Shown piece after piece: positions 4,732 through 48,615 of a stretch of 64,000 nucleotides of DNA. Each line of letters opens with the position of its first letter. The stretch's first letter is position 1. The notes under the pieces were generated by a model. It did no database searches and was not told the origin of the DNA. It worked only from the letters and a program-made list of their open reading frames with translations. The stretch spans positions 62,001-126,000 of the forward strand of contig LUZY01000014.1 in the NCBI GenBank assembly GCA_001603805.1, written 5' to 3'. The position numbers and the translations under genes are program-made. This DNA is from Deferribacterales bacterium Deferri_01. Its GTDB lineage: Bacteria > Chrysiogenota > Deferribacteres > Deferribacterales > Geovibrionaceae.

Positions 4732-7700
4732 TTATTTTCTGAACCTTTCTTTCAGCTTGTGGTATCTGTAATACGCCAGCGGTATCACAAGGAGCGTGAG
4801 TACGGTTGATACAAATGCCCCTGTTATCAATGATACACCAAGACCGGAGAAGATAGGATCCGGCAGCATGAACAGCGCACCCACAATTACCGTTACCGTG
4901 GTAAGCACAACGGGGCGTGTCCTTATGGCTCCTGACTGTATAACCGCTTCCTCAAACTGCTTTCCGTTTGCGACACCGTGGTTTATGAAATCGATAAGCA
5001 GGACTGAGTTACGCACCATAATTCCTGCAAGTGCCATGAAGCCTATCATACTTGTTGCGGTGAAAAACTCGCCGAACAGCCAGTGTCCGGGAATTATCCC
5101 CAGAAGGCTTAAAGGGATGGGGATCATCATTATCACAGGCGTTACGAATGATTTAAACCAGCCCACAAGCACGAAATACATAATGACAAGCACCGCAGCA
5201 AAGGCGAGACCAAGGTCACGGAACACCTCGTAGGTTATCTGCCACTCTCCGTCCCATTTGATTGAAGGAACATCAGTAAATTCCGGCGAGTTTGTCCAGA
5301 ACTGCTGAATAGGCTCTCCGTTATAGGTTATATGAGCCACTCGCTCCTTCATTTTCAGTATGGCGTAAACAGGGCTTTCCTCCACCCCTGCCACATCTGC
5401 GGTGATGTATGTTACGGGCTGCATGTTCTTGTGATATACGGCCTTTTGTTTAACTGCATCCTCCACTCTTACAAGTTCGCTTAAAGAAACAGGCATTCCT
5501 GCCATGGAGATGAGATGTATGTCACGCAGGCTGTTAAGTGCATTCTTCTCCGTTTCGGGGAGCTGAACCATTATACCCACGTCTTCTCTGTCCTGACCTG
5601 TGTGCAGAACGCCCGCCTTCATGCCTTTGAGAGCCATGTAAAGGGTTTGGGAAACCATTTCGGATGAAACGCCCACAAGAGCCGCCTTTTCCTTATCAAC
5701 AGTGAAGCTGAGTTGACGCATGTCTGCTTCCTCGTAGGTGTCTATATCCACAACACCGTCTGTATCGTGGAAAACCTTCATCACCTGTTCGGCTATGTCA
5801 GTCCTTGTTTTTGCATCTGGGCCGTATATCTCAGCTACCAGTGTGGAAAGAACCGGAGGTCCGGGGGGAACTTCCGTCATTTTTACATTTGCGCCGTGTA
5901 TACCTGCTATCTCCTGAACAGGTTCACGGAGTTTTTTGGCGAGGTCGTGGCTTTTGAGCTTTCTTAAGCTTTTATCCACAAAGTTCACCTGAATATCCGC
6001 CATGTTCGGGGCATTTCTGTGGAAATAGTGGCGCACCAGCCCGTTAAAGTTTATGGGAGCGTGGGTACCGGAATATATCTGATAGTTCGCCACCTCATCC
6101 ACAGTGGAGAGATAAGCGCCTATTTCCGTTGCCACGAGGGTTGTCTGCTCAAGGGGTGTGCCTTCGGGCATGTCTATTATTATCTGCATCTCGTTCTTGT
6201 TATCAAATGGAAGCATCTTCATCACAACCATTTTGGCGGGCACAAACATGAAAGCTCCGGCGAACAGCCCCAGCATAACCAGCCCGAGGATTACCCTCTT
6301 GCTGAAGCTGTGCAGAAGCGGAGTAAGCAGAAGATTATAGAACCTGTACAGCTTTGTGCTTTTTATGAATTCATCTTCATCTATGTCTTCATGCTCTTCG
6401 TGTTTTTGCTTGCCGAGCAGCTTGTATGCCAGCCACGGGGTTATAACCAGCGCCACAAAAAGAGAGAACATCATCGCAAGAGACGCTCCAATGGGCATCG
6501 GCTTCATGTATGGTCCCATAAGCCCGCGGACAAATGCCATGGGATAAAGTGCAACTATGACTGTAACTGTGGCGAGGATGGTGGGGTTGCCTACTTCACC
6601 CACGGCGTAGATCGCACGTTTCAGCATGTTCTTTGTGGACATCTTGAAGTGCCGCTCCATGTTTTCCACAACAATTATGGCGTCATCCACCACCAGCCCG
6701 GTAACGAAGATAAGGGCAAACAGAGTTACCCTGTTCAGCGTGTAGTCCAGCATGAAGTAAACAAACAGTGTCAGAGCAAAGGTTACAGGCAGCGCCACAA
6801 ACACCACTGTCCCCGCACGCCAGCCCATAGTGACAGTCATAACCACGATAACTGCGATTATGGCGCCGAGGAGATGCTCAAGGAGTGTCATCACCTTGTC
6901 ATAAGCTGTTTCGCCGTAGTTTCTCGTTACTTCAATATTAACGCCTTCGGGGATTATATAGCCTTTAAGCCCTTCAAGCTTGTTCAGCACATTTTCCGCA
7001 ACAACAACCGAATCGCTTCCTTTGCGTTTAGAGAGAGACACTGTGACAGCCTGAAACCTGTCCGGGGATATGCTTTCATTGAAGCCCATCATAGTATATG
7101 CGGAAGGGATTTCCGCTCCGTCTGTTATTTTTGCAACATCCTTAAGGAGAACAGCTTTTCCGTTATGCGCACCGACAACTGCGCTGCGCACTTCATCAGT
7201 ATTTTTAAAAAAACCGCCGGCAGTTATATAGATAACTTCATTGTTCTGAACAATTTCTCCGGTGTTAAGGGATTTGTTGGATGATTCCAGAGCCTTGAAA
7301 AGACTGAAAAGGTCAAGGTTATACGCTTTGAGCTTTTCCATCTCCGGCTCGATCCTGAGAACACGCTTGTAACCGCCGAGTATAGATGTTCTTGATACGT
7401 CAGGCACTTCCTTAAGGTACTTCTGCGCTTCCGCCGCAACACGGCGAAGCTCGAAGGCATCCAGAGTTTCGGACCAGAGAGTAATGGAAATCTGCGGAAC
7501 ATCATCAATGGATTCCTTTTTGATCAGCGGGTTGAGAACACCATGGGGCATTCTGTCCATGTTGCTGTCTATCTTCATTTTGAGGTTAGTGATGCTCTCT
7601 TCCTCATTCATCCCGACCTTAAAGCGGACAATAACAACGCCTATATCGTTTGAGGCGGTGCTGTAAACGTATTCCACTCCGGGAATTTCCCAGATTATTT

Positions 7701-22633: not shown

Positions 22634-22918
22634 TTATCTGTGTCTGCCGTGTCTGTGTCTGCACGGAGTTATGTTAATTTTGCTGGAGAGGCTGCCGCAC
22701 AGGCAAAGCCTGCTTCCTTCCAGATCCACTGTGACGTTACCGTCACCCGCTTCCTCAACTACTTCAAGAGTGCGCCCTTTTATAAAGCCGTAGTCTATCA
22801 GCCTGCGCACAGACTGCCTGTCGCAGCATTTGCAGAAGCCGGATATCTCACATTTCTCTCCTTTTTTAGCATCAGAGAGACATAATATGCCTTCATCATT
22901 AATCAGGTTGCTGCACAT
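22634..22918 (-). CDS. feoA: FeoA domain protein (Cys-rich)
   Basis: A 94-residue FeoA-type SH3-like protein, an accessory of the Fe(II) GTPase transporter FeoB: LIDYGFIKGRTLEVVEEAGD, then VDLEGSRLCLCGSLSSKI. It carries an unusual cysteine cluster near the N-terminus (CEISGFCKCCDRQS), seen in a subset of FeoA proteins from anaerobes. ATG at 22918 is preferred: GGAG (complement of 22928-22931) is 9 nt upstream, whereas the TTG start at 22924 would be only 3 nt from it. The FeoB-associated gene follows at once, and fur is divergent about 230 bp away. Confidence 0.82.
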   Translation of the reverse strand: MCSNLINDEGILCLSDAKKGEKCEISGFCKCCDRQSVRRLIDYGFIKGRTLEVVEEAGDGNVTVDLEGSRLCLCGSLSSKINITPCRHRHGRHR

Positions 22919-23146
22919 ATTCAAACACTCCGAAAGGGTAAAAACCCAGTTGTTTAGTATTATATTGTAATCTATTAACTTAGTTTGTCAATGTGAACAT
23001 CATGAGTGTTGAAAAAGCCGTAAATAAAATATTTTCAGAGAATTTGAAAACAACAAAAAAATATTGATTATTTCTACTAAAACTAATAAGTTTTTAAAAG
23101 AGGCTGTTGATATGCGGTCTTAATACACAAGAAGACGGTTGTTATT

Positions 23147-23590
23147 ATGAAAAAAGAAACAAAAAACCTTGCCCTTAAAAGGCTTTCTGCGTATTTGTCA
23201 GAAAAGAAGCTCCGTGCGACAAGCCAGAGGGAAATCATTCTCGGCACATTTATTGACATGGGTAAGCACACCACAGCAGAAGAGCTTTACGAAGCACTGA
23301 AAAAATTTGACTCAAGCATCGGTCATGCTACAGTCTACCGTGCCCTGAGACTCTTTGTGGATGCGGAAATAGCCCGCGAACTTAACTTTAATGACGGTTC
23401 CGTACGCTATGAAAGTATTGTCGGAAAAGAGCCCCATGATCACATTATCTGCAAAAAATGCGGCGCAATGGTGGAATTTCTTGATGAAAGCATCAGGCAG
23501 GCGCAGGACGAAATTGCAAAAAAATACGGATATGCACTGAAAAACAGGAGCCATATACTCTTCGGTGTATGTCCCAAGTGCCGCAGATAA
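23147..23590 (+). CDS. Fur family transcriptional regulator
   Basis: A 147-residue Fur/PerR-family metalloregulator. The winged helix is at residues about 10-85 (LRATSQREIILGTFIDMGKH, IGHATVYRALRLFVDAEIA). The metal-binding dimer domain has HDHIICKKCGAMVEF and the C-terminal GVCPKCRR. The two CxxC pairs form the structural zinc site. Which metal or oxidant it senses is not decidable from sequence alone. Its neighbours are feoA (divergent) and mntP (downstream), consistent with iron and manganese homeostasis. Confidence 0.9.
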   Translation: MKKETKNLALKRLSAYLSEKKLRATSQREIILGTFIDMGKHTTAEELYEALKKFDSSIGHATVYRALRLFVDAEIARELNFNDGSVRYESIVGKEPHDHIICKKCGAMVEFLDESIRQAQDEIAKKYGYALKNRSHILFGVCPKCRR

Positions 23591-23619
23591 GCGTTCTGTA
23601 ATTAAATTTCCGTATAATA

Positions 23620-23721
23620 ACATCAGGCGGATTTTTTATATCCCGATCCGTATTAAGGGTTTTAAAGGGTTGAAAGATTCCGTCTGATGTCATATTCTTA
23701 CTCCGCAAAATCCTTACGGAG
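23620..23721 (+). promoter_or_regulatory. Structured mntP leader that hides the ribosome-binding site
   Basis: A 12-bp stem (ACATCAGGCGGA at 23620-23631 with TCCGTCTGATGT at 23679-23690, one G-U pair) encloses 47 nt. A second hairpin pairs CTCCG (23701-23705) with CGGAG (23717-23721), and this CGGAG is the Shine-Dalgarno of mntP (ATG at 23727). An alternative pairing of CGGAT (23628-23632) with ATCCG (23646-23650) would break the long stem. The layout resembles an aptamer plus a translational switch. The conserved core of the yybP-ykoY manganese riboswitch was not found. Confidence 0.45.
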
Positions 23722-23726
23722 CAGTC

Positions 23727-24290
23727 ATGACCTTTATAGAAGTTTTCTGGATAGCGGTGGGTCTTTCAATGGACGCATTCGCTGTATCTATAGCTTGCAG
23801 TGTTCTTTTATGTCATGTGTCTTTCAGGCAGATTTTCCGGCTCGGTTTCCACTTCGGACTTTTTCAGGCGCTGATGCCCGTTGTGGGCTGGCTTGCAGGA
23901 AGGAGCGTGAGCGAATATATCAGTGCATGGGATCACTGGGTGGCTTTCGGTCTGCTTGGGCTTATAGGTCTGAAGGCCATAAGAGAATCTTTTAAGTCCG
24001 GTGATGAAGATGACGTTAGAGGCGACCCGACGAAGGGGATGAGCCTTATTATGCTCTCTGTTGCCACAAGTATAGATGCTTTGGCTGTGGGAGTAAGCCT
24101 TGCTGCTGTTAATGTAAGCATCTTTCAGCCCGCCCTTATTATAGGAATCATCACCGCCTGTTTTTCCGTTGTAGGTACAGTTTACGGCTGTCGGATCGGG
24201 GCTCGTTTCGGCAAAAAAGTCGAGGCCGCCGGCGGAATAATACTTATTCTTATTGGTCTTAAAATCCTGCTGGAACACACAATATTCTAA
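23727..24290 (+). CDS. mntP: MntP-type manganese efflux pump
   Basis: A 187-residue, six-helix inner-membrane protein of the MntP (DUF204) family, which exports Mn(II). The duplicated signature is clear: GLSMDAFAVSIACS in TM1 and ATSIDALAVGVSLA in TM4, each with the conserved Asp. GLFQALMPVVGWLAG and a final GGIILILIGLKILLEH are also typical. It follows fur by 136 bp, and the gap carries a structured leader that sequesters its ribosome-binding site. Confidence 0.92.
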   Translation: MTFIEVFWIAVGLSMDAFAVSIACSVLLCHVSFRQIFRLGFHFGLFQALMPVVGWLAGRSVSEYISAWDHWVAFGLLGLIGLKAIRESFKSGDEDDVRGDPTKGMSLIMLSVATSIDALAVGVSLAAVNVSIFQPALIIGIITACFSVVGTVYGCRIGARFGKKVEAAGGIILILIGLKILLEHTIF

Positions 24291-24330
24291 AATAACCCTT
24301 AACCTCCCCCAACCTCCTTTAAGTTTTTTC

Positions 24331-24363
24331 TTGACTGTCGCTATATACTGATCTATATAGCGA
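24331..24363 (+). promoter_or_regulatory. Sigma-70 promoter overlapped by a perfect ModE box
   Basis: TTGACT (24331-24336), a 17-bp spacer and TATATA (24354-24359) form a near-consensus promoter. A perfect 26-bp inverted repeat, TCGCTATATA-N6-TATATAGCGA (24338-24363), covers the spacer and -10. It matches the ModE operator consensus (CGnTATATA-N6-TATATAnCG type). A ModE dimer bound there would block RNA polymerase. A weaker dyad, CGTTAT-N12-ATAACG (24369-24392), lies in the leader. A ModE-family gene lies downstream in the same locus at 28,279. Confidence 0.85.
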
Positions 24364-24407
24364 TTAATCGTTATGTGCCGAGGGGAATAACGTTTCGGAG
24401 AGGTTAA

Positions 24408-26426
24408 ATGATAAGACAAGGCAAAATTTTGACAGCCGCCGTGATTGGTGCGGCATTCATGTTCGGGGCTGCTTCAGCGAAAGCAGAAGATGAGCGCATT
24501 TACAAACTTGGTGAAATCGAGATAACAGACTCAGTTTCATGGGTTAATTCAAAACCCATGCAGGAAGTGTCGTCTGAAGAGTTTGAAGCAGGGTCGGCTA
24601 CGAGCGTTTCAGAAGCACTTGAGCAGCTTCCTTCTGTTAATTTTACTCCCAATTCAAAAGGAGAGAAGCGTCTCAATATCAGAGGCTTTTCAGACAGATA
24701 CATTCAGGTTTACTTTGACGGTATTCCCGTTGCCCTGCCCTATGAAGCTTATATAGATTTGGGCAACTACAATACTTTCGGTATTGATAAGATAGAGCTT
24801 GAAACAGCCGGCGGTTCAGTTCTTTTCGGACCTAATGCGGCAGGCGGTGCGGTGAATATAGTTACAGCGAAGCCGAATAAGCCTTTTGAATCAGCTATAG
24901 AGTTTATGTACAAAAGCGGCGACACCTACCAGACAAGGATAGGTCTGGGGAGCAAAATAGGCAAAGCTTACGGCATGCTGTCTGTTGCGTATGAAGATTC
25001 CGACGGCTTTGAACTTCCCAGCGGGTATGATGAACGTAATGAAAACGGCGGGCTTCGTGACAACTCCGGCTACTGGAGAGGAACAATCACAGGTAAAGTC
25101 GGCTATGAGTTTGCCAAAGGCAGTGAAGTTGCTTTCGGTATAAACCACATTAACAGCAGCCTTGAACTTCCTCCCAATACCAAAGAAATAGACAACGGAA
25201 AAAATAACAGTCCTGTGCGTTACTGGAATTACGAAGAATGGGACAAGGACACCTATTACCTTCTGGGCAGTGTAAGAAAAGATAAATACGCAGTAACAGC
25301 AAGACTCTATAGAGATGAATACTATAACGTCATGAACCGTTATAAGGATAATACTTACACAGAATGTCTGAGCCCTTCATGGTGCAACAGCGCATATGAC
25401 GACTATTCCAACGGTGTAATTGTCAACACTGAGATCAAAACAGGTGCAATAAACACTGTGATCCTCAGCGGTCAGTATAAGAAAGATGTACATAAAACAA
25501 GAAATGACAAAACTCCCGAATGGGAAAAAGACGTGGCGGAAACTTACTTCGCAGGTATAGAGGACAGACTTACGCTTGGTAAATTCATCATCAGCCTCGG
25601 CGGCAGCTATGAAGTAAACAACGCCATATCCTCCGACAGCGAAGAGGAGCTTAATGACGATATAAAAGTTTTTAACCCGCAGGCAACTGTAATTTATAAT
25701 ATGTCTCCCAACACGATCTTACATGCAAAAGCGGCACGCAAAACCCGTTTTCCTTCAATGAAGGAGCTTTACTCAAGCTACTCATACAACAACGGCGGGC
25801 AGACAACATATTTTGCAAACTCTGACCTTAAAGAAGAAAAAGCCATGAACTATGAAATAGGTATTAAACAGACACTGTTCGATACTGTTCTTGTTCAGGC
25901 TAATGTTTTCTACTCAAAAATAGACGACAAGATTAACACTAAAGCTGCATACACAGGCAATGACCCGAACGCTTCAGCAGATGCACAGACATCAGACAAC
26001 ATTGATGATGTGACCATGCAGGGATTTGAAGTAATGCTCGGAGGAGATTTTACAAAAAACACCACCACAATAGCTTCATATGCTTACATTGATGCTGAGA
26101 AAAGTATCGAAGGCGACGACTCTGACATAGTTGCCGATGTCCCCGAACACAAATTCTATCTGGATCACTCATACAGAATAGGCAAAATTTTTGTTCTCGG
26201 CGGCAGAATTAATATGGAAAAAGGACGCTATTCTCAGAAATCCGATTACAGCTACAAAGAGCTTGATACATACTGGACAGCGGATCTCAGAGCTGAGGTT
26301 TCACCTTTGAAATACACTTCCATAGAGGTTGGTGTGGAGAATGTGGCGGATGAAGAATATGAGCTTTCATACGGTCTGCCTCAGGCGGGAAGAACATACT
26401 ACGCAAAGCTTAAAATGAAAATATAA
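24408..26426 (+). CDS. TonB-dependent outer-membrane receptor, ModE-box controlled
   Basis: A 672-residue TonB-dependent transporter. The signal peptide runs to about residue 27 (ASAKA|ED) and a TonB-box-like stretch is GEIEITDS. The plug domain is at about 45-165 (VSEALEQLPSVNF, KRLNIRGFSDRYIQVYFDG, GSVLFGPNAAGGAVNIVTAK), followed by a 22-strand barrel ending RTYYAKLKMKI. The C-terminal residue is Ile rather than the usual Phe. The substrate is not evident from the barrel, but the promoter is covered by a ModE box. The next gene starts 2 bp after the stop, and a ModE regulator follows. A molybdate or tungstate complex (or metallophore) is therefore the best inference; siderophore uptake is the alternative. 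Confidence 0.9.
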   Translation: MIRQGKILTAAVIGAAFMFGAASAKAEDERIYKLGEIEITDSVSWVNSKPMQEVSSEEFEAGSATSVSEALEQLPSVNFTPNSKGEKRLNIRGFSDRYIQVYFDGIPVALPYEAYIDLGNYNTFGIDKIELETAGGSVLFGPNAAGGAVNIVTAKPNKPFESAIEFMYKSGDTYQTRIGLGSKIGKAYGMLSVAYEDSDGFELPSGYDERNENGGLRDNSGYWRGTITGKVGYEFAKGSEVAFGINHINSSLELPPNTKEIDNGKNNSPVRYWNYEEWDKDTYYLLGSVRKDKYAVTARLYRDEYYNVMNRYKDNTYTECLSPSWCNSAYDDYSNGVIVNTEIKTGAINTVILSGQYKKDVHKTRNDKTPEWEKDVAETYFAGIEDRLTLGKFIISLGGSYEVNNAISSDSEEELNDDIKVFNPQATVIYNMSPNTILHAKAARKTRFPSMKELYSSYSYNNGGQTTYFANSDLKEEKAMNYEIGIKQTLFDTVLVQANVFYSKIDDKINTKAAYTGNDPNASADAQTSDNIDDVTMQGFEVMLGGDFTKNTTTIASYAYIDAEKSIEGDDSDIVADVPEHKFYLDHSYRIGKIFVLGGRINMEKGRYSQKSDYSYKELDTYWTADLRAEVSPLKYTSIEVGVENVADEEYELSYGLPQAGRTYYAKLKMKI

Positions 26427-26427
26427 G

Positions 26428-28056
26428 ATGTCACTAACCGACAGTAGCGACACTAAATGGAGAAAGGGAGCCATAGCGGGGGGCGTCTGGGGGACCTCCG
26501 AGATGACCCTCGGCTCTTTTCTTCATAACTTACGGATTCCGTTTAAAGGGCATATCCTGACGGCAATCGGCATAGCCATACTGAGCGCTTTCGGAATGAA
26601 ATGGCGCACAAGCGGCATGTTTTACAGGGCAGGGCTTACCTCAGCAATGCTTAAGGCATTTTCGCCCAGTCCTAAAGTCGTTGTCCCGATGGTGGCAATA
26701 ACAATAGAAGGCTTTCTGTTTGAGCTTGGTACACGCATTCTGGGGAGGAACGTCATAGGCTTCCTTGTCAGTGGCGGGCTTGCAATGCAGTGGGCGGTTC
26801 TCCATAAGGTTATAAGGCTTCTTATATTGTACGGAGCCAGCATATATACTGTCTATGAACAGCTTTTTGAAAAAGCGGCAACAGGGCTTGAACTTCCTTT
26901 TATCAACCCTGTGTACGGCATTGTTTTTGTGTTTGCACTGAGTTTTGCTGTAGGCGCCGGAGCATCCGCAGTGGGGTGCGCCGCAGCGGCAAAGAGCAAT
27001 GGAAGTGATGAACCCATAACCTTCGGGGACAGGCAGACGGCTCCCGCCGGCACTATGATGCAGGGCTGTGCGGGGCGCCACTCGCTCCTGTGGCTTCTGC
27101 TGCATATAGCAGTTATTGCCGTTGTTGTGGGTTTTATGGATAAAAGTGAGTGGCTCGCATACATTCTGCTGGTTTACTCACTGGCTGTCTCAGTAAGGTA
27201 CAGAAACTTTCTGAAGCGGTTTGCATCGTGGAAGATATGGCTTCCAATATTTGTAATATCATTTGTATCAGGCTTTGTGTTGAAGTCTCCGGAAGGAAAG
27301 TTCATCAGCACGCCGGGTTTTCTTGAGGGGATAAGGCTTGCAGTGAGAGCTTTTGTTACCACATGCGCTCTCAGCGGTTTGGTCTCGGAGATGGGGCATC
27401 CGCTTATAGCCGGTTTCTTCCGCCGCAGATACGGGGACAGGATAGACTCCGTACTGTCTGTAGCGTGGGGTACTGTGAACACTGTTGCTCCAAGCGTAAA
27501 GGTGAGAACATTGATAAAAAACCCTGTGAAGGGCATCGCCGGAATGATGGATTCTGTTCTTTCTTCAGATAGAAAGAGGGCAATTCTTATCACCGGGGAA
27601 GTTAACGGAGGCAAGACAACTTTTCTCAAGGCCTTCCTCAGCACACTGCCTTCGGATGCGGAAGTCAGAGGTTTTGTGGCGGAAGCTGTTTTTGAGGATG
27701 GAACAAAGACAGGATACAGCATAACAGATGTCCGCACAGGAGAAAGTGCTGAACTGTGCAGACGCACAAAGGACGGCTTCTATTTTGAACCCGCAGGGCT
27801 TGCCTTCGGTGAAAAATGTATGGGTGAAGCGCCTTATAAAAATATGTACGCTGTTTTTGATGAGGTCGGTCACTACGAAATGAGGGGCGGCGGGTGGGAC
27901 ACTTTAATAAAGAAAGTCACCGCCGGCGGTGCTGCTCCGGTTATTGCGGTCAGGCGCAGTCTCGTGGATAAGGTTTGCGGGCGTTACGGTCTTGTAAACG
28001 CAGAAATATATGATGTTGATAATATAAAAGTGCAGGCTGCTGAGTCTGCCGTATAA
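26428..28056 (+). CDS. Membrane protein fused to a THEP1-like P-loop NTPase
   Basis: A 542-residue protein starting 2 bp after the receptor stop, so probably translationally coupled. The N-terminal half is a polytopic membrane module (GGVWGTSEMTLGSFLHNLRI, then hydrophobic segments near 40-60, 85-105, 108-125 and 165-190) that resembles an ECF-type substrate-binding component. A second membrane block (about 215-355) loosely resembles an EcfT-like component (ends at ALSGLVSEMGHPLIAGFF). The C-terminal domain (about 383-535) is a THEP1/DUF2478-type nucleoside triphosphatase: Walker A GEVNGGKTTFL near residue 390 and DEVGHYEMRGGGWD near 477. Family roles are inferred. Together it looks like a one-polypeptide energised importer or chaperone for the receptor's cargo. 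Confidence 0.7.
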   Translation: MSLTDSSDTKWRKGAIAGGVWGTSEMTLGSFLHNLRIPFKGHILTAIGIAILSAFGMKWRTSGMFYRAGLTSAMLKAFSPSPKVVVPMVAITIEGFLFELGTRILGRNVIGFLVSGGLAMQWAVLHKVIRLLILYGASIYTVYEQLFEKAATGLELPFINPVYGIVFVFALSFAVGAGASAVGCAAAAKSNGSDEPITFGDRQTAPAGTMMQGCAGRHSLLWLLLHIAVIAVVVGFMDKSEWLAYILLVYSLAVSVRYRNFLKRFASWKIWLPIFVISFVSGFVLKSPEGKFISTPGFLEGIRLAVRAFVTTCALSGLVSEMGHPLIAGFFRRRYGDRIDSVLSVAWGTVNTVAPSVKVRTLIKNPVKGIAGMMDSVLSSDRKRAILITGEVNGGKTTFLKAFLSTLPSDAEVRGFVAEAVFEDGTKTGYSITDVRTGESAELCRRTKDGFYFEPAGLAFGEKCMGEAPYKNMYAVFDEVGHYEMRGGGWDTLIKKVTAGGAAPVIAVRRSLVDKVCGRYGLVNAEIYDVDNIKVQAAESAV

Positions 28057-28059
28057 AGA

Positions 28060-28225
28060 GCTTTGCCGGCGGAGGTTCTGCTTCCTGCATTTTGTCAGAA
28101 TCCTTGCCGGCACAAGAAAACAGCGGAACTGGGGGTTCCGTTGCCGTAACACTCATAAGCAGGTACACAGGGCGGCGGAGCGGAAGCATGAGTTCCTCGT
28201 CTCAGAAGCAAATGCTCCGCCTCCT
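28060..28225. other. Intergenic region with several hairpins before modE
   Basis: The 222-bp gap between the NTPase fusion and modE holds a series of stems. TGCCGGC repeats enclose TTCTG/CAGAA (within 28062-28115). CGGAAC-N5-GTTCCG lies near 28124-28140. GGCGGAGC (28174-28181) pairs with GCTCCGCC (28214-28221). No convincing gene was found on either strand and no known riboswitch core was recognised. It may be a structured leader of modE or mRNA-stabilising elements. Confidence 0.35.
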
Positions 28226-28278
28226 TCTGCTCTTCTGTCTTCACAAAAGTTTTATACGACAATTCCAGTGAGTGTGTA

Positions 28279-28659
28279 ATGAAAAAAAACGGTTATGAAA
28301 TCTCTTTTTCCAGAACAGCGGGCGATAATGTCCTTGGCGGAAGAATATGGATAGACAAGCAGGGCAGAAACTTCATTGGTCTTGGCAAAATAGTTTTTTT
28401 GGAGGCGATCAGGGAACACGGGTCAATCTCCGCTGCTGCTTCCTCACTTAATATGTCATACCGTAAAGCATGGGGGCTGGCACAGAGTATAAACGCCCTG
28501 TCCGATGAGCCTCTTGTAACAAAACAGGCAGGCGGTGCCGGCGGCGGCGGGGCGGAACTCACCGAAGAAGGTGAGAGAGTTATCTCGCTTTACTGGGATA
28601 TCTGCCGCAAGTTTGAGAAGTTTCTGGAAGTACAGCAGGAATTGATAGAGAGGTTCTGA
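28279..28659 (+). CDS. ModE family regulator (DNA-binding domain only)
   Basis: A 126-residue winged-helix protein of the ModE N-terminal type. IWIDKQGRNFIGLGKIVFLE leads to the helix-turn-helix HGSISAAASSLNMSYRKAWG. The family-typical glycine-rich wing follows (AGGAGGGGAELTEEGERVI). The C-terminal molybdate-binding TOBE (di-Mop) domains of E. coli ModE are absent. Short ModE forms are known in many bacteria, and how they sense molybdate is less clear. It should act on the palindrome at 24,338-24,363 that drives the receptor and NTPase-fusion genes. The ribosome-binding site is weak. Confidence 0.9.
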   Translation: MKKNGYEISFSRTAGDNVLGGRIWIDKQGRNFIGLGKIVFLEAIREHGSISAAASSLNMSYRKAWGLAQSINALSDEPLVTKQAGGAGGGGAELTEEGERVISLYWDICRKFEKFLEVQQELIERF

Positions 28660-28670
28660 TTTTTATCGGT

Positions 28671-28700
28671 TTGACTTAATTCCACATATGGGATTATCAT
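28671..28700 (+). promoter_or_regulatory. Candidate promoter of the kinase gene, possibly leaderless
   Basis: TTGACT (28671-28676), an 18-bp spacer and TATCAT (28695-28700) lie so close to the ATG (28707) that transcription would begin at or next to the start codon. No Shine-Dalgarno is visible. Confidence 0.35.
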
Positions 28701-28706
28701 TCATCC

Positions 28707-30536
28707 ATGAGCAAAAAGCTGGCAATATGGATAAGCGTTTTGGTGACTGTTGTTCTTGTGTTCTCCACGGGAGTTTATTATTCACAGTCGCAGAAGGCAG
28801 TTCTTTTTGAGATACAAAAACGTGCCGCCGAACTCTTAAGGGCGGACAAGCGTACCGTGTCCGATTTTCTGGGGCATATCCGTTCCGTAACCTACGGTCT
28901 TTACACAAACCCGATAAACAGCCGTTTCATCTTCCACGGAGAAGGAAAAGCAAAGGCGGAAAGCCTTTTTATGGACTACTGCAACAACGTCCGTGAGGTA
29001 CAGGCTATCAGGCTTGTAGACAAGGACGGCAGGATTCAGGTCTTTATGAGAGAATGCGAAAACCTGTCCGGTGAAGCAGATTACGAACCTATAGATATTT
29101 CATCTAAAGACTTTATACAGGACGCAGCCGAACTGGACAGACCTGATATTCTCTTCAGCAAGTTTGAGCGGGGCTTTCTGCCGGATGCTGTGAGCTTCTG
29201 CCCCTCTATGATACGTACCGTTGTCCCTTATTTTGCAGGGGGTGAGCATGCGGGCTATCTGGTGGTGAATTACTGGGGCGAGCGTTTGGGCGAGGTTGTG
29301 AACAGGCTGAACAACGATGAGGGGCACGCCTTTATTGTTGAGAAAAACAAAATCAATCCTGACCGGCACGGAATTTTCCTTTTCCACAGAAACAAAAGCT
29401 ACGAGTTCGCAAATCAGATGCAGCATAGCCACCGCTTTCAGACTGTTTACGGCGAAGATGTCTTTGATGAACTAGTCAAAGGGCTGGACGGCATAATCCG
29501 GCTTAAAAACGGTGATTTTCTTGGCTATACTACGGTTTATCCATACGAAGGGACTGATATTTCCTGGAAAGTCTGCACTGTGATAGATGCCAAGTACGCC
29601 TTCCGCAATCTTCAGGCACTTAAGATGGGCTTTATCCTTGTTCTGTCTCTTTCTGTATTTCTTGCGGTCTTGACAGCATTTATATTTGCAGAAAGATTCC
29701 TCCGCCCTCTTGGCGGGCTGAAAACCGCTCTGGAAAGCTACGGCAGGGGCGAACTGGACTATGAGATAAAAGAAAAATATACTGACGAACTGGGCGATAT
29801 TGCTGAAAAAGTGCAGGAGATGGCACATTCTCTGCGAAGGTACATCGGTGAGCGTGAAACATCGCAGAAAAGGATGGAGCTTGCTGACAGGCTCTCATCA
29901 TTAAGTATATTAAGCGCAGGGGTTTCCCATGAGCTTTCGACTCCGCTGAATTCTATTCTTCTTGCTGCTACACTGCTGGAGAAACAATACGGGCTCAGTG
30001 ATGAGGTGCAGGCGGTTAAAACTCAGGCTGAAAGATGCGTGGAGATAATAGCCTCAATGAAACGCCTCGTGGCGGACGGGTATGACAGCTGCACAAAGGA
30101 ACGGCTGAACCTGAAGGAGCTTGTGAGCGAGGCTGTGCGCTTTATGCGTGCCGGCGGCGGAGTGGTGATAGAAACCAGGCTTGAGGATGCATACATAGAA
30201 GGCTGCCGGACTCTTCTGAATCAGGCATTTCTGAATATAGCGGTAAATGCTGTTGATGCTGTCTACCCCGAGGGCAGGGTGGTTTTTCGTCTGTTTAGGG
30301 ATAAAGGGAAAGTTATACTGGAAGCGGAAGACAACGGAAGCGGAATAGAGCCGGAGAAGCTTGAAAAAATATTCGACCCGTTTTTCACCACGAAATCACC
30401 GGATAAGGGAACTGGGCTTGGGCTCTCCATAACTCACAGGATAATCACCGAACACGGCGGCAGGATAAGTGTTAAAAGCGAAAAAGGGAAAGGGACATCC
30501 ATAAGGTGTGAATTTAATGAAAGTAGTGATAGTTGA
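28707..30536 (+). CDS. Membrane sensor histidine kinase (partner of NtrC-type regulator)
   Basis: A 609-residue kinase. TM1 is at about 5-25 and a large periplasmic double-Cache-like sensor spans about 30-300 (VQAIRLVDKDGRIQVFM; VVPYFAGGEHAGYLVVNYWG). TM2 is at about 308-330, and HAMP follows at about 330-385 (FLRPLGGLKTALESYGRGEL). The phospho-His box is GVSHELSTPLNSILLAAT (about 409-425). The ATPase domain has NAVDAV (N box), DNGSGI (G1) and GTGLGLS (G2). The downstream NtrC-type regulator gene overlaps its 3' end by 20 bp, so the two form one two-component system. The likely target is the sigma-54-dependent cytochrome gene at 32,667. Confidence 0.92.
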   Translation: MSKKLAIWISVLVTVVLVFSTGVYYSQSQKAVLFEIQKRAAELLRADKRTVSDFLGHIRSVTYGLYTNPINSRFIFHGEGKAKAESLFMDYCNNVREVQAIRLVDKDGRIQVFMRECENLSGEADYEPIDISSKDFIQDAAELDRPDILFSKFERGFLPDAVSFCPSMIRTVVPYFAGGEHAGYLVVNYWGERLGEVVNRLNNDEGHAFIVEKNKINPDRHGIFLFHRNKSYEFANQMQHSHRFQTVYGEDVFDELVKGLDGIIRLKNGDFLGYTTVYPYEGTDISWKVCTVIDAKYAFRNLQALKMGFILVLSLSVFLAVLTAFIFAERFLRPLGGLKTALESYGRGELDYEIKEKYTDELGDIAEKVQEMAHSLRRYIGERETSQKRMELADRLSSLSILSAGVSHELSTPLNSILLAATLLEKQYGLSDEVQAVKTQAERCVEIIASMKRLVADGYDSCTKERLNLKELVSEAVRFMRAGGGVVIETRLEDAYIEGCRTLLNQAFLNIAVNAVDAVYPEGRVVFRLFRDKGKVILEAEDNGSGIEPEKLEKIFDPFFTTKSPDKGTGLGLSITHRIITEHGGRISVKSEKGKGTSIRCEFNESSDS

Positions 30537-31800
30537 GGACGATAAAACCCTCTGCGGGCTGCTGAAAAAGAGCCTTGAAAATGAATTTAACGTTACTGCA
30601 TTTTACGAACCGGAAAAAGCTCTGGCACACATAAAGAGCGCCGGGACTGATGCCGTGGTGTCTGACGTGCGAATGCCGGGGATGACGGGCTTTGAACTTC
30701 TGGAGGCTCTTCGAGAGGATATGCCGGAGGTGCGCCTTATCCTCATGACAGGCTATGGGACAGTCACGGAATCCGTAAACGCAATCAAAAGCGGCGCATA
30801 TGACTACATCCTTAAGCCCGTTGATCCTGACATACTCATAAAAAAGCTCGATCAGATACGCACCCTTCTGGACTTTGGCAGACAAAGTGCCGGAAGCTTC
30901 GCACCTATATTTAAATCAAGAAAATTTGACGATATAATGCAGCTTGCCGCCCGTGCCGCAAAGGCAGACAGCGGTGTTTTGATCACAGGCGAGACAGGGA
31001 CAGGCAAAGAGGTCATCGCCCGTTTTATCCACGGGGTTTCTTCCCGCAAGACAGCCCCTTTTATTGCGGTAAACTGCGGAAATATGCAGGAGCAGCTTTT
31101 TGAAAGTGAGCTTTTCGGCTATCGAAAAGGGGCGTTTACCGGAGCTGATACAAATAAACGGGGTCTTGTTTCCGCTGCTGAAAGGGGCACTCTGTTTCTT
31201 GATGAAATAGGTGAGCTTCCCCTGCCCTCACAGTCGAAGCTGCTTCGTTTTATAGAAACAAGAACCTACTATCCCCTTGGCTCAGTGGAGCCTAAGACGG
31301 CAAATGTGCGCTTCATAGCCGCAACAAACCGCAACCCAGCCGAAGAAGCTGAAAACGGTACTTTCAGAAAAGACCTTTATTACAGGCTGAATGTGGTTGA
31401 GATCAAAGTTCCGCCACTCCGTGACAGGAAAGAGGATATTATGCCTCTTGCAGAACATTTTCTCGGCAGGTTCCGTCATATTAATCCTAAAATTGAAGGT
31501 TTTTCCCCTGATGCAGTTCAGGCTTTGGAAAACTATTCTTATCCGGGAAATGTGCGTGAGCTTTCAAATATAATAGAGCGTGCCGTGATTCTTGAAACAG
31601 GGCACAGAGTGTCTCCGGCATCACTCCACATGACAGGTTCGGCGGAACGGACCGTTTCAAAAAAGCTGGATGATGTTGTGCGTGAGCATATACTCGCTGC
31701 TCTGGCTGAAGCGGGCGGAAGCAAGGCGAAAGCAGCGGAGATTCTGGGAATCGACGCCTCCACAATCTACCGCAGACTCAAGGAATACGGTATAAACTAA
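30517..31800 (+). CDS. Sigma-54-dependent response regulator (NtrC family)
   Basis: A 427-residue activator in three parts. The receiver is at about 1-120 ([18 protein letters not shown] with phospho-Asp, YILKPVDP). The AAA+ sigma-54 interaction domain is at about 135-365 (Walker [10 protein letters not shown], the GAFTGAD loop in [16 protein letters not shown], Walker [14 protein letters not shown]). A Fis-type helix-turn-helix is at the C-terminus ([22 protein letters not shown]). ATG at 30517 is chosen because MKVVIVEDD is the natural receiver start; the in-frame GTG at 30508 would add only three residues. It overlaps the kinase gene and probably binds the twin palindromes at 32,493-32,528. 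Confidence 0.93.
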
Positions 31801-31921
31801 AGAGTATTCGTATTCTTGAAATTGTCAGCCTTACACATCTGTTAGTAAATACCTAAAAAGTGCGTACTTTAATTTTGCAGCTAAGTGAATATATTTTTGT
31901 GAAAAAAACGGGAGAATACGT

Positions 31922-32467
31922 ATGAAGAATATTCTTGTACTTACAGGAAGCCCCAGAAAGGGCGGAAACAGCGATCTGCTTGCAGATGCCTTCATTAAAG
32001 GAGCAGAAGAAGCAGGGCATAAGGTGAGCAAGTTTGCCTCAGCAGAAAAGAAGATAGCCGGATGCCGTGCCTGTGACAAATGCTGGACAACGGGAACAGC
32101 GTGTATTTTTCCCGATGACTTCAGGGAATTAGCTCCTTTGGTGGAGGAAGCGGATACATTGGTTATTGTTTCTCCTGTTTACTGGTTTACAATGTCTGCA
32201 CAGATAAAAGCTGCAATAGACAGGCTTTATGCTTATTACACTCCGAATAGAAAAAAAGACCTTAAGCTCACAGAAACTGTTCTGCTCTCCTGCGCTGCGG
32301 ATGAGCCCAGTGTGTTCAAAGGGCTGGAGGAGACCTATAAGTCCCTGCTAGCATACACAGGATGGAAGGATGCGGGTATCATAACAGTGCCCGAAGTCTC
32401 AGATAAAGGTGACATACTTAAAACAGGTGCGTTAACAAAAGCAGAAGAGCTTGGAAAAAGTATCTGA
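31922..32467 (+). CDS. Flavodoxin-fold NAD(P)H-dependent FMN reductase / iron-sulfur flavoprotein-like
   Basis: A 181-residue flavodoxin-like protein. The FMN phosphate loop is LTGSPRKGGNSDLLADAF, then a Cys-rich segment CRACDKCWTTGTACIFPDDF (about 49-68) and a second flavin-binding stretch TLVIVSPVYWFTMSAQIKAA. The CxxC-x6-C spacing resembles the cysteine cluster of archaeal/anaerobe iron-sulfur flavoproteins, though it is not the exact compact motif. It probably transfers electrons from NAD(P)H in the cytoplasm; the substrate is unknown. GGGAG lies 8 bp before the ATG. It sits between the two-component genes and the sigma-54 promoter. Confidence 0.82.
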   Translation: MKNILVLTGSPRKGGNSDLLADAFIKGAEEAGHKVSKFASAEKKIAGCRACDKCWTTGTACIFPDDFRELAPLVEEADTLVIVSPVYWFTMSAQIKAAIDRLYAYYTPNRKKDLKLTETVLLSCAADEPSVFKGLEETYKSLLAYTGWKDAGIITVPEVSDKGDILKTGALTKAEELGKSI

Positions 32468-46233: not shown

Positions 46234-48615
46234 ATGAACGTTTCAAGACGAGATTTTATAAAGCTTACAGCCGCTGCAAGCGCTGCAGCTGCGGCGGGCA
46301 TCTCCTTTCCCGAAGCTGCGCAGGCTCAGGAAAGCGCTGATGTGGAAAAATGGGTTAAAGGAACATGCCGTTTCTGCGGAACAGGCTGCGGTGTTTATGT
46401 CGGTGTAAAAGACGGCAAAGCAGTTGCGATAAAAGGAAACCCCGATGCTAAAACAAACTTCGGCTTTCTCTGTGTTAAGGGATTCCTCGCATTTAAATGT
46501 ATGTACCATCCCGACAGGCTGAAAATGCCCCTTGTCCGTCAGAAAAACGGCAAGTTTAAGGAAACATCATGGAACGAGGCCCTTGACCTCGTGGCAAATA
46601 AATTTAAATACCTTCGTGAAAAATACGGTAAAGACGCTGTAGCTTACTACGGCAGCGGTCAGTGTACAACGGAGGAAACATATACATTCAACAAGCTCTG
46701 GAAAGGCGGCTTCGGCAGCAACATGGTGGAAGGAAACCCCAGACTCTGCATGGCATCAGCTGTTGCCGGCTACATATCCACATTCGGTTCTGATGAGCCT
46801 ATGGGAAGCTATTCGGATATCGAAAGCTCAAAATGTATCTTTATCACAGGTTCAAATATGAGCGAATGCCACCCTGTTATATACAGAAGGGTAATGCGCC
46901 ATAAAATGAAAAACCCCGATGTTAAGATAATAGTTTGCGAACCCAGAAGGACAAGTACGGCGAAAATTGCAGATCTCTGGCTCCCCAATGACCCAGGAAC
47001 AGACCTTGCAGTGTTTCATGCAATGGCGAATGTGATCATAGCAAAAAATCTTCATAACATGGATTTCATCAATAAACATTCACGCATTACCACAGGCAAG
47101 GATGTTGTTGACTTTGAGGAATACAAAAAATTCCTTTCCCAGTTCACGCCTGAAGCAGTTGAAAAACTTACAAGATGCCCTGCTGATCATATAGTTAAGG
47201 CTGCCGAATGGTTTGCCACAAGCGGTGCCACTCTCTCCATGTGGTGCATGGGTCTCAACCAGCGTAAAAGAGGAATGTGGGCAAACAACCTTGTACACAA
47301 CCTTCATATAATAACAGGGGAAATGGGTAAACCCGGTGCAGATTCCTTCTCGCTCACAGGTCAGCCTAACGCCTGCGGCGGTGTTCGTGAAACGGGCGCC
47401 CTTTCCCATCTTCTCCCCGGAACAAAACCTGTGGCGAACGATAAGTGGCGCGCTCATGTGGAAAAAGCCTGGAATATTCCTGCGGGTACAATCAATCCCA
47501 AACCAGGATTCCATACTATGCTGATGTTTGAAAAACTCGGCGGTGAAAAGGATGCTGAAAAGCCGATTAAAGGAATGCTTGTAAGCACCACAAACCCTGC
47601 ACAGTCTCTGCCCAACCTGCACAAATATGTTAAGGGAATGCAGGACAGCTTCCTTGTGGTTCTGGATATTTTCCCCACAAGAACAACACAGCTCGCTGAC
47701 GTTATTCTTCCCGCTGCTTTCATTTATGAAAAGGGCGGAGTTTACGGATGTTCAGAGCGCAGAAGCCAGCTTACGGAAAAAGCAGTTGAGCCGGTGGGAC
47801 AGGCAAAACCTGACCTTTGGATTGCCGCTCAGATTGCAAAAAGAATGGGGTTTGAAAAGCTCATTCCTTGGAACGGAAACGACTCCATGAAGGCAAATGA
47901 GCAGGCATGGACAGACTATATAACAGTTACAAAAGACACTGAACACACCCTTTGGGGAGCGACTTACGACAGGCTCAAAAAAGAGAAAGCAGGCATACAG
48001 TGGCCCTGCCCCTCTGTTGACCACCCCGGAACGGAAAGACGCTATGTCAGAGGACAGGACCCTATGTTTGAGCATCCCGCTGAAAAGGATCACATCCCTT
48101 CTGATGCAACAATCTACTTCTATGCGGATGCTAAAAAGGAAGGCAAGCTTAATCTTTTCCTCCGTCCGTACGATGGACCGGGCGAAATGCCTGACAAGGA
48201 ATACACTTTCTTCCTCACTACAGGAAGAGTTGTGGAACAGTGGCACACGGGAACAATGACAATGCGTATTCCCGAAATAGCCAGAACTCACCCGAACGCA
48301 TATATAGAACTGCATCCTGACGATGCTAAACAGCTTGGTATAACCGCAGGGGACATGGTGGAGATAGTGAGCAGAAGAGGCAAGTCCGTCATGCCGGCGG
48401 TAATAACAAAAGGCACTCTTCCGGGTGTTGCTTTTGTTCCGTGGCATGATCAAGCAATGGCAAGGATGATCAACTTCGTATGCAACGACGTTGTAGACCC
48501 CGATTCAAAAGAACCGGAATACAAAGTTGCCGCAGTGCGCATTAACAGGGTAAGCGGACCGAAGGACGTTGCGGATAAGTACATAATAGACGATGTAAAC
48601 GCTCCTTTTGCTTAA
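46234..48615 (+). CDS. napA: Periplasmic nitrate reductase catalytic subunit
   Basis: A 793-residue molybdopterin oxidoreductase reducing nitrate to nitrite in the periplasm. The twin-arginine signal is NVSRRDFIKLTAAASAAAA. A [4Fe-4S] site has CRFCGTGCGVYVG plus a fourth Cys in GFLCVKGF. The Mo-coordinating Cys lies in GNPRLCMASAVAGYISTFGSDEP. The C-terminal domain includes TGRVVEQWHTGTMTMRIPEI. NapA carries a single Cys Mo ligand and bis-MGD. It lacks a following napB gene, which resembles the monomeric NapA type of Desulfovibrio. It belongs to napMADGH, and its cofactor links it to the molybdate locus at 24-28 kb. Confidence 0.95.
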   Translation: MNVSRRDFIKLTAAASAAAAAGISFPEAAQAQESADVEKWVKGTCRFCGTGCGVYVGVKDGKAVAIKGNPDAKTNFGFLCVKGFLAFKCMYHPDRLKMPLVRQKNGKFKETSWNEALDLVANKFKYLREKYGKDAVAYYGSGQCTTEETYTFNKLWKGGFGSNMVEGNPRLCMASAVAGYISTFGSDEPMGSYSDIESSKCIFITGSNMSECHPVIYRRVMRHKMKNPDVKIIVCEPRRTSTAKIADLWLPNDPGTDLAVFHAMANVIIAKNLHNMDFINKHSRITTGKDVVDFEEYKKFLSQFTPEAVEKLTRCPADHIVKAAEWFATSGATLSMWCMGLNQRKRGMWANNLVHNLHIITGEMGKPGADSFSLTGQPNACGGVRETGALSHLLPGTKPVANDKWRAHVEKAWNIPAGTINPKPGFHTMLMFEKLGGEKDAEKPIKGMLVSTTNPAQSLPNLHKYVKGMQDSFLVVLDIFPTRTTQLADVILPAAFIYEKGGVYGCSERRSQLTEKAVEPVGQAKPDLWIAAQIAKRMGFEKLIPWNGNDSMKANEQAWTDYITVTKDTEHTLWGATYDRLKKEKAGIQWPCPSVDHPGTERRYVRGQDPMFEHPAEKDHIPSDATIYFYADAKKEGKLNLFLRPYDGPGEMPDKEYTFFLTTGRVVEQWHTGTMTMRIPEIARTHPNAYIELHPDDAKQLGITAGDMVEIVSRRGKSVMPAVITKGTLPGVAFVPWHDQAMARMINFVCNDVVDPDSKEPEYKVAAVRINRVSGPKDVADKYIIDDVNAPFA

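Follow-up and report, generated by a model that had tools for sequence, protein, structure and literature searches.

In Gram-negative bacteria, the uptake of molybdenum and tungsten (Mo/W) is usually described from the periplasm on, the oxyanions being thought to pass freely through porins. The ModE–ModABC system has the same regulator family and the same operator motif as the locus described here, and both occur in one genome. ModABC consists of a periplasmic binding protein, a permease, and an ABC ATPase and has no outer-membrane step, whereas our locus has no ABC parts. Sites for ModE were reportedly surveyed by Studholme and Pau in 2003. A second comparison is offered by MolABC of Haemophilus, a BtuCD-type importer of molybdate/tungstate. 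Mo/W would there be transported by the importer class of siderophores and vitamin B12, and a comparable set is seen in one genome of our comparison (G038), where the neighbors of a stand-alone THEP1 are DUF364, TonB, an ABC ATPase, and a pair of Peripla_BP_2 proteins. Our locus differs from MolABC in having no Peripla_BP_2 protein, no FecCD-type permease, and no ABC ATPase.

The TonB-dependent receptors controlled by Zur or Fur are likewise receptors for a scarce metal under a metal-sensing repressor, and the Zur-controlled receptor of Caulobacter (PMC4176598) is an example for another metal; our locus has ModE as its regulator and Mo/W as the suggested substrate. Single-domain ModE proteins have been noted in Desulfovibrio (PMC545781), and for DUF364, links to flavin/pterin-like compounds and to the chelation of heavy metals have been put forward (PMC2954201). 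No ModE-controlled TonB receptor was found in the literature that we searched, the coverage of which was incomplete, so that an earlier report may exist. As a variant on metalloregulator-controlled receptors, such a receptor would be new, and the inner-membrane component that accompanies it is possibly new as well.

Layout of the Locus and Its Operators

The sequence studied, hereafter called the window, is a stretch of 64 kb (G000:C14:62001-126000) from a genome of 2.85 Mb in 14 contigs (G000). The features of the locus are as follows:

24331..24359, + strand: promoter-like TTGACT-N17-TATATA, found by inspection and overlapped by the first operator
24339..24362, no strand assigned: first ModE-type operator, CGCTATATA-N6-TATATAGCG, an exact match kept in G021 and G022
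24369..24392, no strand assigned: second ModE-type operator, CGTTAT-N12-ATAACG, from a pattern scan, kept in G021 and G022
24408..26426, + strand: TonB-dependent receptor, 672 aa (PF07715 and PF00593 above cut-off)
26428..28056, + strand: membrane/THEP1-NTPase fusion, 542 aa (PF03266; AlphaFold model; Foldseek)
28120..28230, + strand: tonB remnant with neither membrane anchor nor C-terminal domain (DNA identity to tonB of G022)
28279..28659, + strand: short ModE, DNA-binding domain only, 126 aa (TIGR00637, no Mop domain)

A single base separates the receptor stop from the ATG of the fusion. The receptor, the fusion, and the short ModE gene proposed in the initial annotation were all confirmed, and the NapA that it reported in the same window corresponds to a NapA-like molybdoenzyme ORF at 46234-48615, judged by sequence features only. 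Aligned over 113 columns, the tonB remnant is 92% identical in DNA to the G022 tonB, its reading frames are broken, and the short ModE occupies the place that this gene has in the relatives G021 and G018. No binding protein, ABC permease, or ABC ATPase of the ModABC, WtpABC, or TupABC type was found in 22634-32467 of the window. Directly upstream of the receptor (22634-24290) lie feoA, a gene for a Fur-family regulator, and mntP, which make this a metal-homeostasis neighborhood.

The first operator, CGCTATATACTGATCTATATAGCG, has 0 mismatches to the consensus and is the single match in 64 kb; 0 such palindromes were found in 100 shuffles of the window and 0 are expected by chance. The perfect ModE-type palindrome described at the outset is exact. 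A second operator in the same 24-bp frame had been overlooked, and the pattern CGYTAT-N12-ATARCG has only these two sites in the window (24339-24362 and 24369-24392). Both are conserved in two congeners, G021 and G022, the second being the weaker by weight matrix in relatives (13.5 and 20.1 bits). The promoter-like pair consists of TTGACT (24331-24336) and TATATA (24354-24359) with a spacer of 17 nt, and its TTGAC part is conserved in G021 and G022. The operator does overlap this pair as proposed, but the match to the consensus is 9/12, which makes the term “near-consensus” generous, and a stricter scan that required T at the last -10 position did not list the pair. Because operator sequence overlaps the promoter-like sequence, and given the established biology of ModE, repression by ModE–molybdate may be expected at this site.

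The ModE Regulon of the Genome

Two modABC systems, each with a ModE box, are present in G000. In other words, the initial description of a route without modABC is true of the locus only, and an absence of modABC from the genome can be rejected. The best boxes of G000 (0-1 mismatch) stand before modABC, modE-modC-modA-modB, exbB-exbD-tonB, and the present receptor, so the motif is common to modABC and exbBD-tonB; further boxes with 0-1 mismatch precede a PhnCDE-type ABC importer and an operon of SBP_bac_6, CobW, ABC, and methyltransferase genes. In related genomes, too, the box, frequently in tandem, precedes modABC. Because a whole-genome scan with three mismatches was no better than its reversed control (24 vs 20 sites in G000), only sites with 0-1 mismatch or sites kept in relatives were used. 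On this basis a 5'-nucleotidase was rejected as a conserved ModE target, the two weaker boxes of the G000 gene (L062) being missing in relatives.

The second modABC set is encoded together with a full-length ModE with Mop domains (L060, 5908-6699). Since boxes stand before modABC and before a modE-modCAB operon with a Mop-bearing ModE, the motif is, judged from these gene arrangements, the mark of the Mo regulon in G000. Nine TonB-dependent receptors are encoded in this genome, and for the eight others, the best box within 1.5 kb scores 11.3 bits, which is not comparable to the 28.0 of the window box. The regulon thus provides strong evidence for the predicted control of the receptor by ModE. 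The short ModE of the window scores 84.9 bits against TIGR00637 (E=3e-24; curated cut-off 98.5) and is 66% identical to a second short ModE in G000. Its signature regions align with those of the full-length ModE, and Mop (molybdate-binding) domains are absent from its 126 aa.

The Receptor and Its Conservation in the Geovibrionaceae

The receptor has a Plug domain (PF07715, 68.9 bits) and a beta-barrel domain (PF00593, 122.5 bits), both above cut-off. By inspection, a Y/F-x-L-G-E-(I/V) motif is found near the mature N-terminus in members from both Deferribacterota and Bacteroidota. Dependence on TonB is suggested by the receptor family, by this motif, and by the co-regulated ExbBD-TonB: the exbBD-tonB orthologues of G000, G025, G026, and G028 are all boxed (4/4), and the TonB loci examined outside this orthologue set have no box. 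In a tree, the window receptor forms one clade (100/100) with those of G018, G021, G022, G025, G026, and G028 and with the receptors of four Bacteroidota loci (L071, L080, L082, and L088), to the exclusion of the other eight receptors of G000.

This clade retains ModE boxes in seven Geovibrionaceae genomes. The box before the receptor is perfect in G021 and G022 and has one mismatch in G018, and tonB directly follows the fusion in G021 and G018. In G025, G026, and G028, the fusion stands alone at its own locus behind its own box (3, 1, and 3 mismatches, respectively), and the clade receptor is encoded at a separate locus, directly after a boxed lipoprotein gene (L176 5261-7132, L177 13389-15287, and L178 13194-15083) whose product has fn3 and 5'-nucleotidase C-terminal domains (Pfam, L176 only). 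The clade receptor is convergent with the boxed exbBD-tonB in G025 and G028. A check for homologous loci without boxes, suggested in the initial annotation, found a ModE-type site before the receptor or the preceding gene in 11 of the 11 clade members examined.

In G022, a deletion joins the first ~36 codons of the fusion to tonB (L018 8786-9646), so that nearly all of the fusion is gone, and the receptor, the operators, and TonB are retained despite this loss. The claim that receptor and fusion form a complete import path is left in doubt by this deletion, the separate loci in G025, G026, and G028, and the reduction of tonB to a remnant in the window.

It should be mentioned that the deletion in G022 offers a natural comparison for whether the fusion is needed. 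A gene for a SAM-dependent methyltransferase adjoins the fusion in several relatives (L014-L017), divergent in G025, G026, and G028 and downstream of tonB in G018.

The Membrane/THEP1 Fusion Protein

The fusion consists of a multi-helix membrane domain (approximately residues 1-378) and a THEP1-type NTPase (approximately 385-530; Pfam match 386-521). The NTPase_1 domain (PF03266), which scores 43.5 bits against a cut-off of 23.9 in the window protein and has a P-loop, is present in 54/54 fusion members, with G395 and K396 invariant; in 26/54, it is also weakly MobB-like, as P-loop proteins may be. No Pfam family was found for the membrane half in the 54 members, and its invariant residues include W11, E25, H33, N34, K76, S79, P80, and S81. 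An AlphaFold model from 54 sequences has a mean pLDDT of 83 (59 for an earlier model from six sequences), and its only confident Foldseek matches in the PDB are the THEP1 structures 2i3b and 1ye8. The fusion therefore has THEP1/NTPase_1 as its C-terminal domain and adds to it a conserved membrane domain of no family. These results indicate a real conserved family, whose modeled membrane part has no fold match among PDB structures; that it is a transporter would be a further step, and one that we infer.

The multi-part hydrophobic region followed by an NTPase gives the impression of the S-T-A layout of ECF-type vitamin importers, and such an importer was suspected for this reason. We rejected it: no ECF family is in the Pfam list of the 54 members, no ECF structure is among the Foldseek matches shown for the whole model, and the NTPase is not an ABC ATPase.

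In some Bacteroidota, the NTPase and membrane parts are separate genes. Together with the stand-alone THEP1 of G038, this suggests that THEP1 belongs as a module to this kind of uptake locus, and not to the fusion alone.

Related Loci and Genomes in the Bacteroidota

Scanning with the membrane domain gave 243 relatives, of which 80, mostly from Bacteroidota, were kept, and 83 loci were compared. Within five genes of the fusion, there is a receptor in 13 loci, a short ModE in nine, and a molybdoenzyme in nine; DUF364 lies just upstream in 29. Accordingly, 70/83 loci have no receptor within five genes, and 54/83 have no DUF364. Three gene orders recur: (i) ModE, receptor, DUF364, fusion (L071, L082, and L088); (ii) ModE, receptor, fusion (L080); and (iii) ModE, DUF364, fusion, with other genes after ModE (L096, L119, and L124). 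In L119, XdhC and a MobA-like NTP transferase are present as well, and look-alikes of these are seen by inspection in L139.

A weight matrix trained on modABC/modE boxes only found nine sites of at least 15 bits in the Bacteroidota loci, compared with 0-1 in shuffles. The pattern CGYTAT-N12-ATARCG has eight sites in 1.04 Mb vs 0.30 expected (0-1 for other spacers), a figure that serves as a guide and not as a blind test, the rule having been framed after some sites were seen; the weight matrix is the cleaner test. All eight sites (8/8) fall in the nine short-ModE loci, six of them directly before the receptor.

Among 119 genomes of one Bacteroidota order, MoaC is found in 26/38 with the membrane part of the fusion and in 28/81 without it (Fisher p=5e-4, uncorrected for phylogeny and MAG incompleteness). 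ModB scores above cut-off in three of 28 fusion genomes, 12 or 13 others have WtpB-looking matches of 129-157 bits (12 were fetched, most with a WtpA-like neighbor; by inspection), and the remainder have weak ModB-like matches only; this absence is soft because most of the genomes are MAGs and ModB was the component searched for.

By inspection, several Wtp-type Mo/W importer operons of Bacteroidota (L212, L213, L214, and L217) are headed by a short ModE-like gene and are often followed by a MoeA-like gene.

A Possible Route for Scarce Molybdenum or Tungsten

The locus is, with fair probability, a ModE-repressed, TonB-energized uptake system for a scarce form of Mo or W, in which the fusion would be an inner-membrane partner. 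The ModE control, the Mo/W link, and the TonB-dependent outer-membrane step that were first proposed have gained support from the regulon-wide boxes and from conservation in Geovibrionaceae and Bacteroidota, and the Mo/W link is also backed by co-location with ModE, DUF364, XdhC, a MobA-like protein, and molybdoenzymes. Regulon and neighbors suggest a substrate that contains Mo or W. We can only guess that this substrate is chelated, from the expectation that free molybdate should pass porins and from DUF364, which accompanies the fusion in Bacteroidota.

The events that we infer, from repression through substrate class and transport direction to the role of the NTPase, would be as follows. 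Under Mo/W scarcity, the Mop-bearing full-length ModE, whose gene lies elsewhere, would leave the operators (24339-24392), and the receptor and the fusion would be transcribed. The receptor would carry a Mo/W species into the periplasm, driven by the ModE-boxed ExbB-ExbD-TonB encoded elsewhere in the genome. The imported species might be an oxyanion or, more likely because a TonB receptor is needed, a chelated or otherwise bulky form. In the inner membrane, the THEP1-type NTPase and the membrane domain of the fusion would act on the same substrate, most likely importing it or releasing it into the cytoplasm, alongside the two ModABC systems. Several points weigh against this explanation, namely the loss of most of the fusion in G022, the 70/83 loci without a receptor within five genes and the 54/83 without DUF364, the fur/feoA/mntP neighbors, the FecCD-type system nearby in G025, G026, and G028, and a membrane half of no known fold or family; moreover, with two ModABC systems already in G000, the need for an extra system is not obvious.

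If the receptor, the energizing complex, and the membrane NTPase are all under ModE, some anaerobes would pay for active capture at the outer membrane, as is done for iron and vitamin B12, and this would speak for Mo/W chelates or for competition over Mo/W in sulfidic habitats. Two uncharacterized families, DUF364 and the membrane/THEP1 fusion of many Bacteroidota, would acquire a testable role, and the retention of the same set in distant Bacteroidota suggests a little-studied route for scarce Mo/W. A more ambitious reading, which we hold only tentatively, takes the fusion for an inner-membrane importer of a class not yet described, using a THEP1-type NTPase in place of an ABC ATPase. Together with the receptor and the ModE-controlled ExbBD-TonB, it would carry Mo/W, probably as a chelate, across the entire cell envelope of anaerobic Deferribacterota and Bacteroidota, and in some Bacteroidota it would stand in for ModABC/WtpABC.

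Alternatively, the receptor may feed the periplasm with Mo/W, with ModABC doing all the inner-membrane transport and the fusion acting as a membrane-anchored NTPase in the handling of Mo/W, either freeing it from a chelator or serving cofactor metabolism. We regard this as rather doubtful, even though the two boxed ModABC systems, the receptor and tonB that G022 keeps without most of the fusion, the weakly MobB-like NTPases, and the lack of a transporter fold match all agree with it, since many fusion genomes of Bacteroidota have no strong ModB-like match and the large membrane domain is conserved with invariant polar residues.

In another reading, which is unlikely, the receptor takes up an iron siderophore or a compound resembling cobalamin, and ModE does no more than tune it, for instance, on account of molybdate competing for catechol chelators. 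The strongest family similarity of the receptor is to the siderophore receptors of TIGR01783 (158.6 bits), fur, feoA, and mntP adjoin it, and G025, G026, and G028 have nearby a FecCD-type system that comes with a receptor of its own and that, in G026 and G028, is a neighbor of the homologous receptor. However, that system has no ModE box, and the window receptor falls below the cut-offs of all siderophore, heme, and B12 receptor models (223.5 for TIGR01783; 91.2 bits vs a curated score of 599.7 for the BtuB model TIGR01779). Furthermore, the ModE linkage holds in two phyla, and the operons shown have no siderophore genes.

Salvage of molybdenum cofactor (a pterin, perhaps a dinucleotide) instead of the metal, to which the proposed link of DUF364 to flavin/pterin-like compounds (PMC2954201) and the 5'-nucleotidase C-terminal domain of the boxed lipoprotein before the G026 receptor would lend themselves, at first seemed supported because molybdoenzymes occur in 10/12 MoaC-negative genomes with the fusion vs 3/17 sampled without it (p=7e-4, uncorrected for phylogeny and MAG incompleteness), and is now very improbable: the MoaC-less share of molybdoenzyme genomes looks about equal with and without the fusion (about 10/36 vs roughly 9/37, the latter extrapolated from 3/17, taking MoaC-positive genomes to have molybdoenzymes), so that MAG incompleteness explains the molybdoenzymes of MoaC-negative genomes, and the 5'-nucleotidase boxes of G000 itself are not kept in relatives.

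Other Genes with ModE Boxes

A perfect ModE box lies at 6042 of L056 (G000:C1:1500-14500), between a methyltransferase gene and the PhnCDE-type importer, whose binding protein is of the Phosphonate-bd type; G022 (L052) is arranged in the same way. The box at 6405 of L058 (G000:C3:124000-137000) belongs to an operon for a DUF1858/SBP_bac_6 protein, a CobW-type GTPase, an ABC ATPase, and a methyltransferase, and in G021 (L066, box at 6125) the operon has the first three of these genes, the methyltransferase being part of the G000 version. This DUF1858/SBP_bac_6-CobW-ABC operon is a candidate for a second uncharacterized member of the Mo/W regulon. Boxes at 5063 of L061 (G000:C13:56000-70000) and at 10285 of L065 (G025) precede a gene for a Tat-signal redox protein (GCxxG-type by eye), which in L061 is followed by ferredoxin-like and NrfD-like genes; a further short ModE gene lies close by there. 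In the same region (L061 2111-4981), ORFs of repeated HCRTGSLE-like peptides resemble a translated CRISPR array, with candidate cas genes directly upstream.
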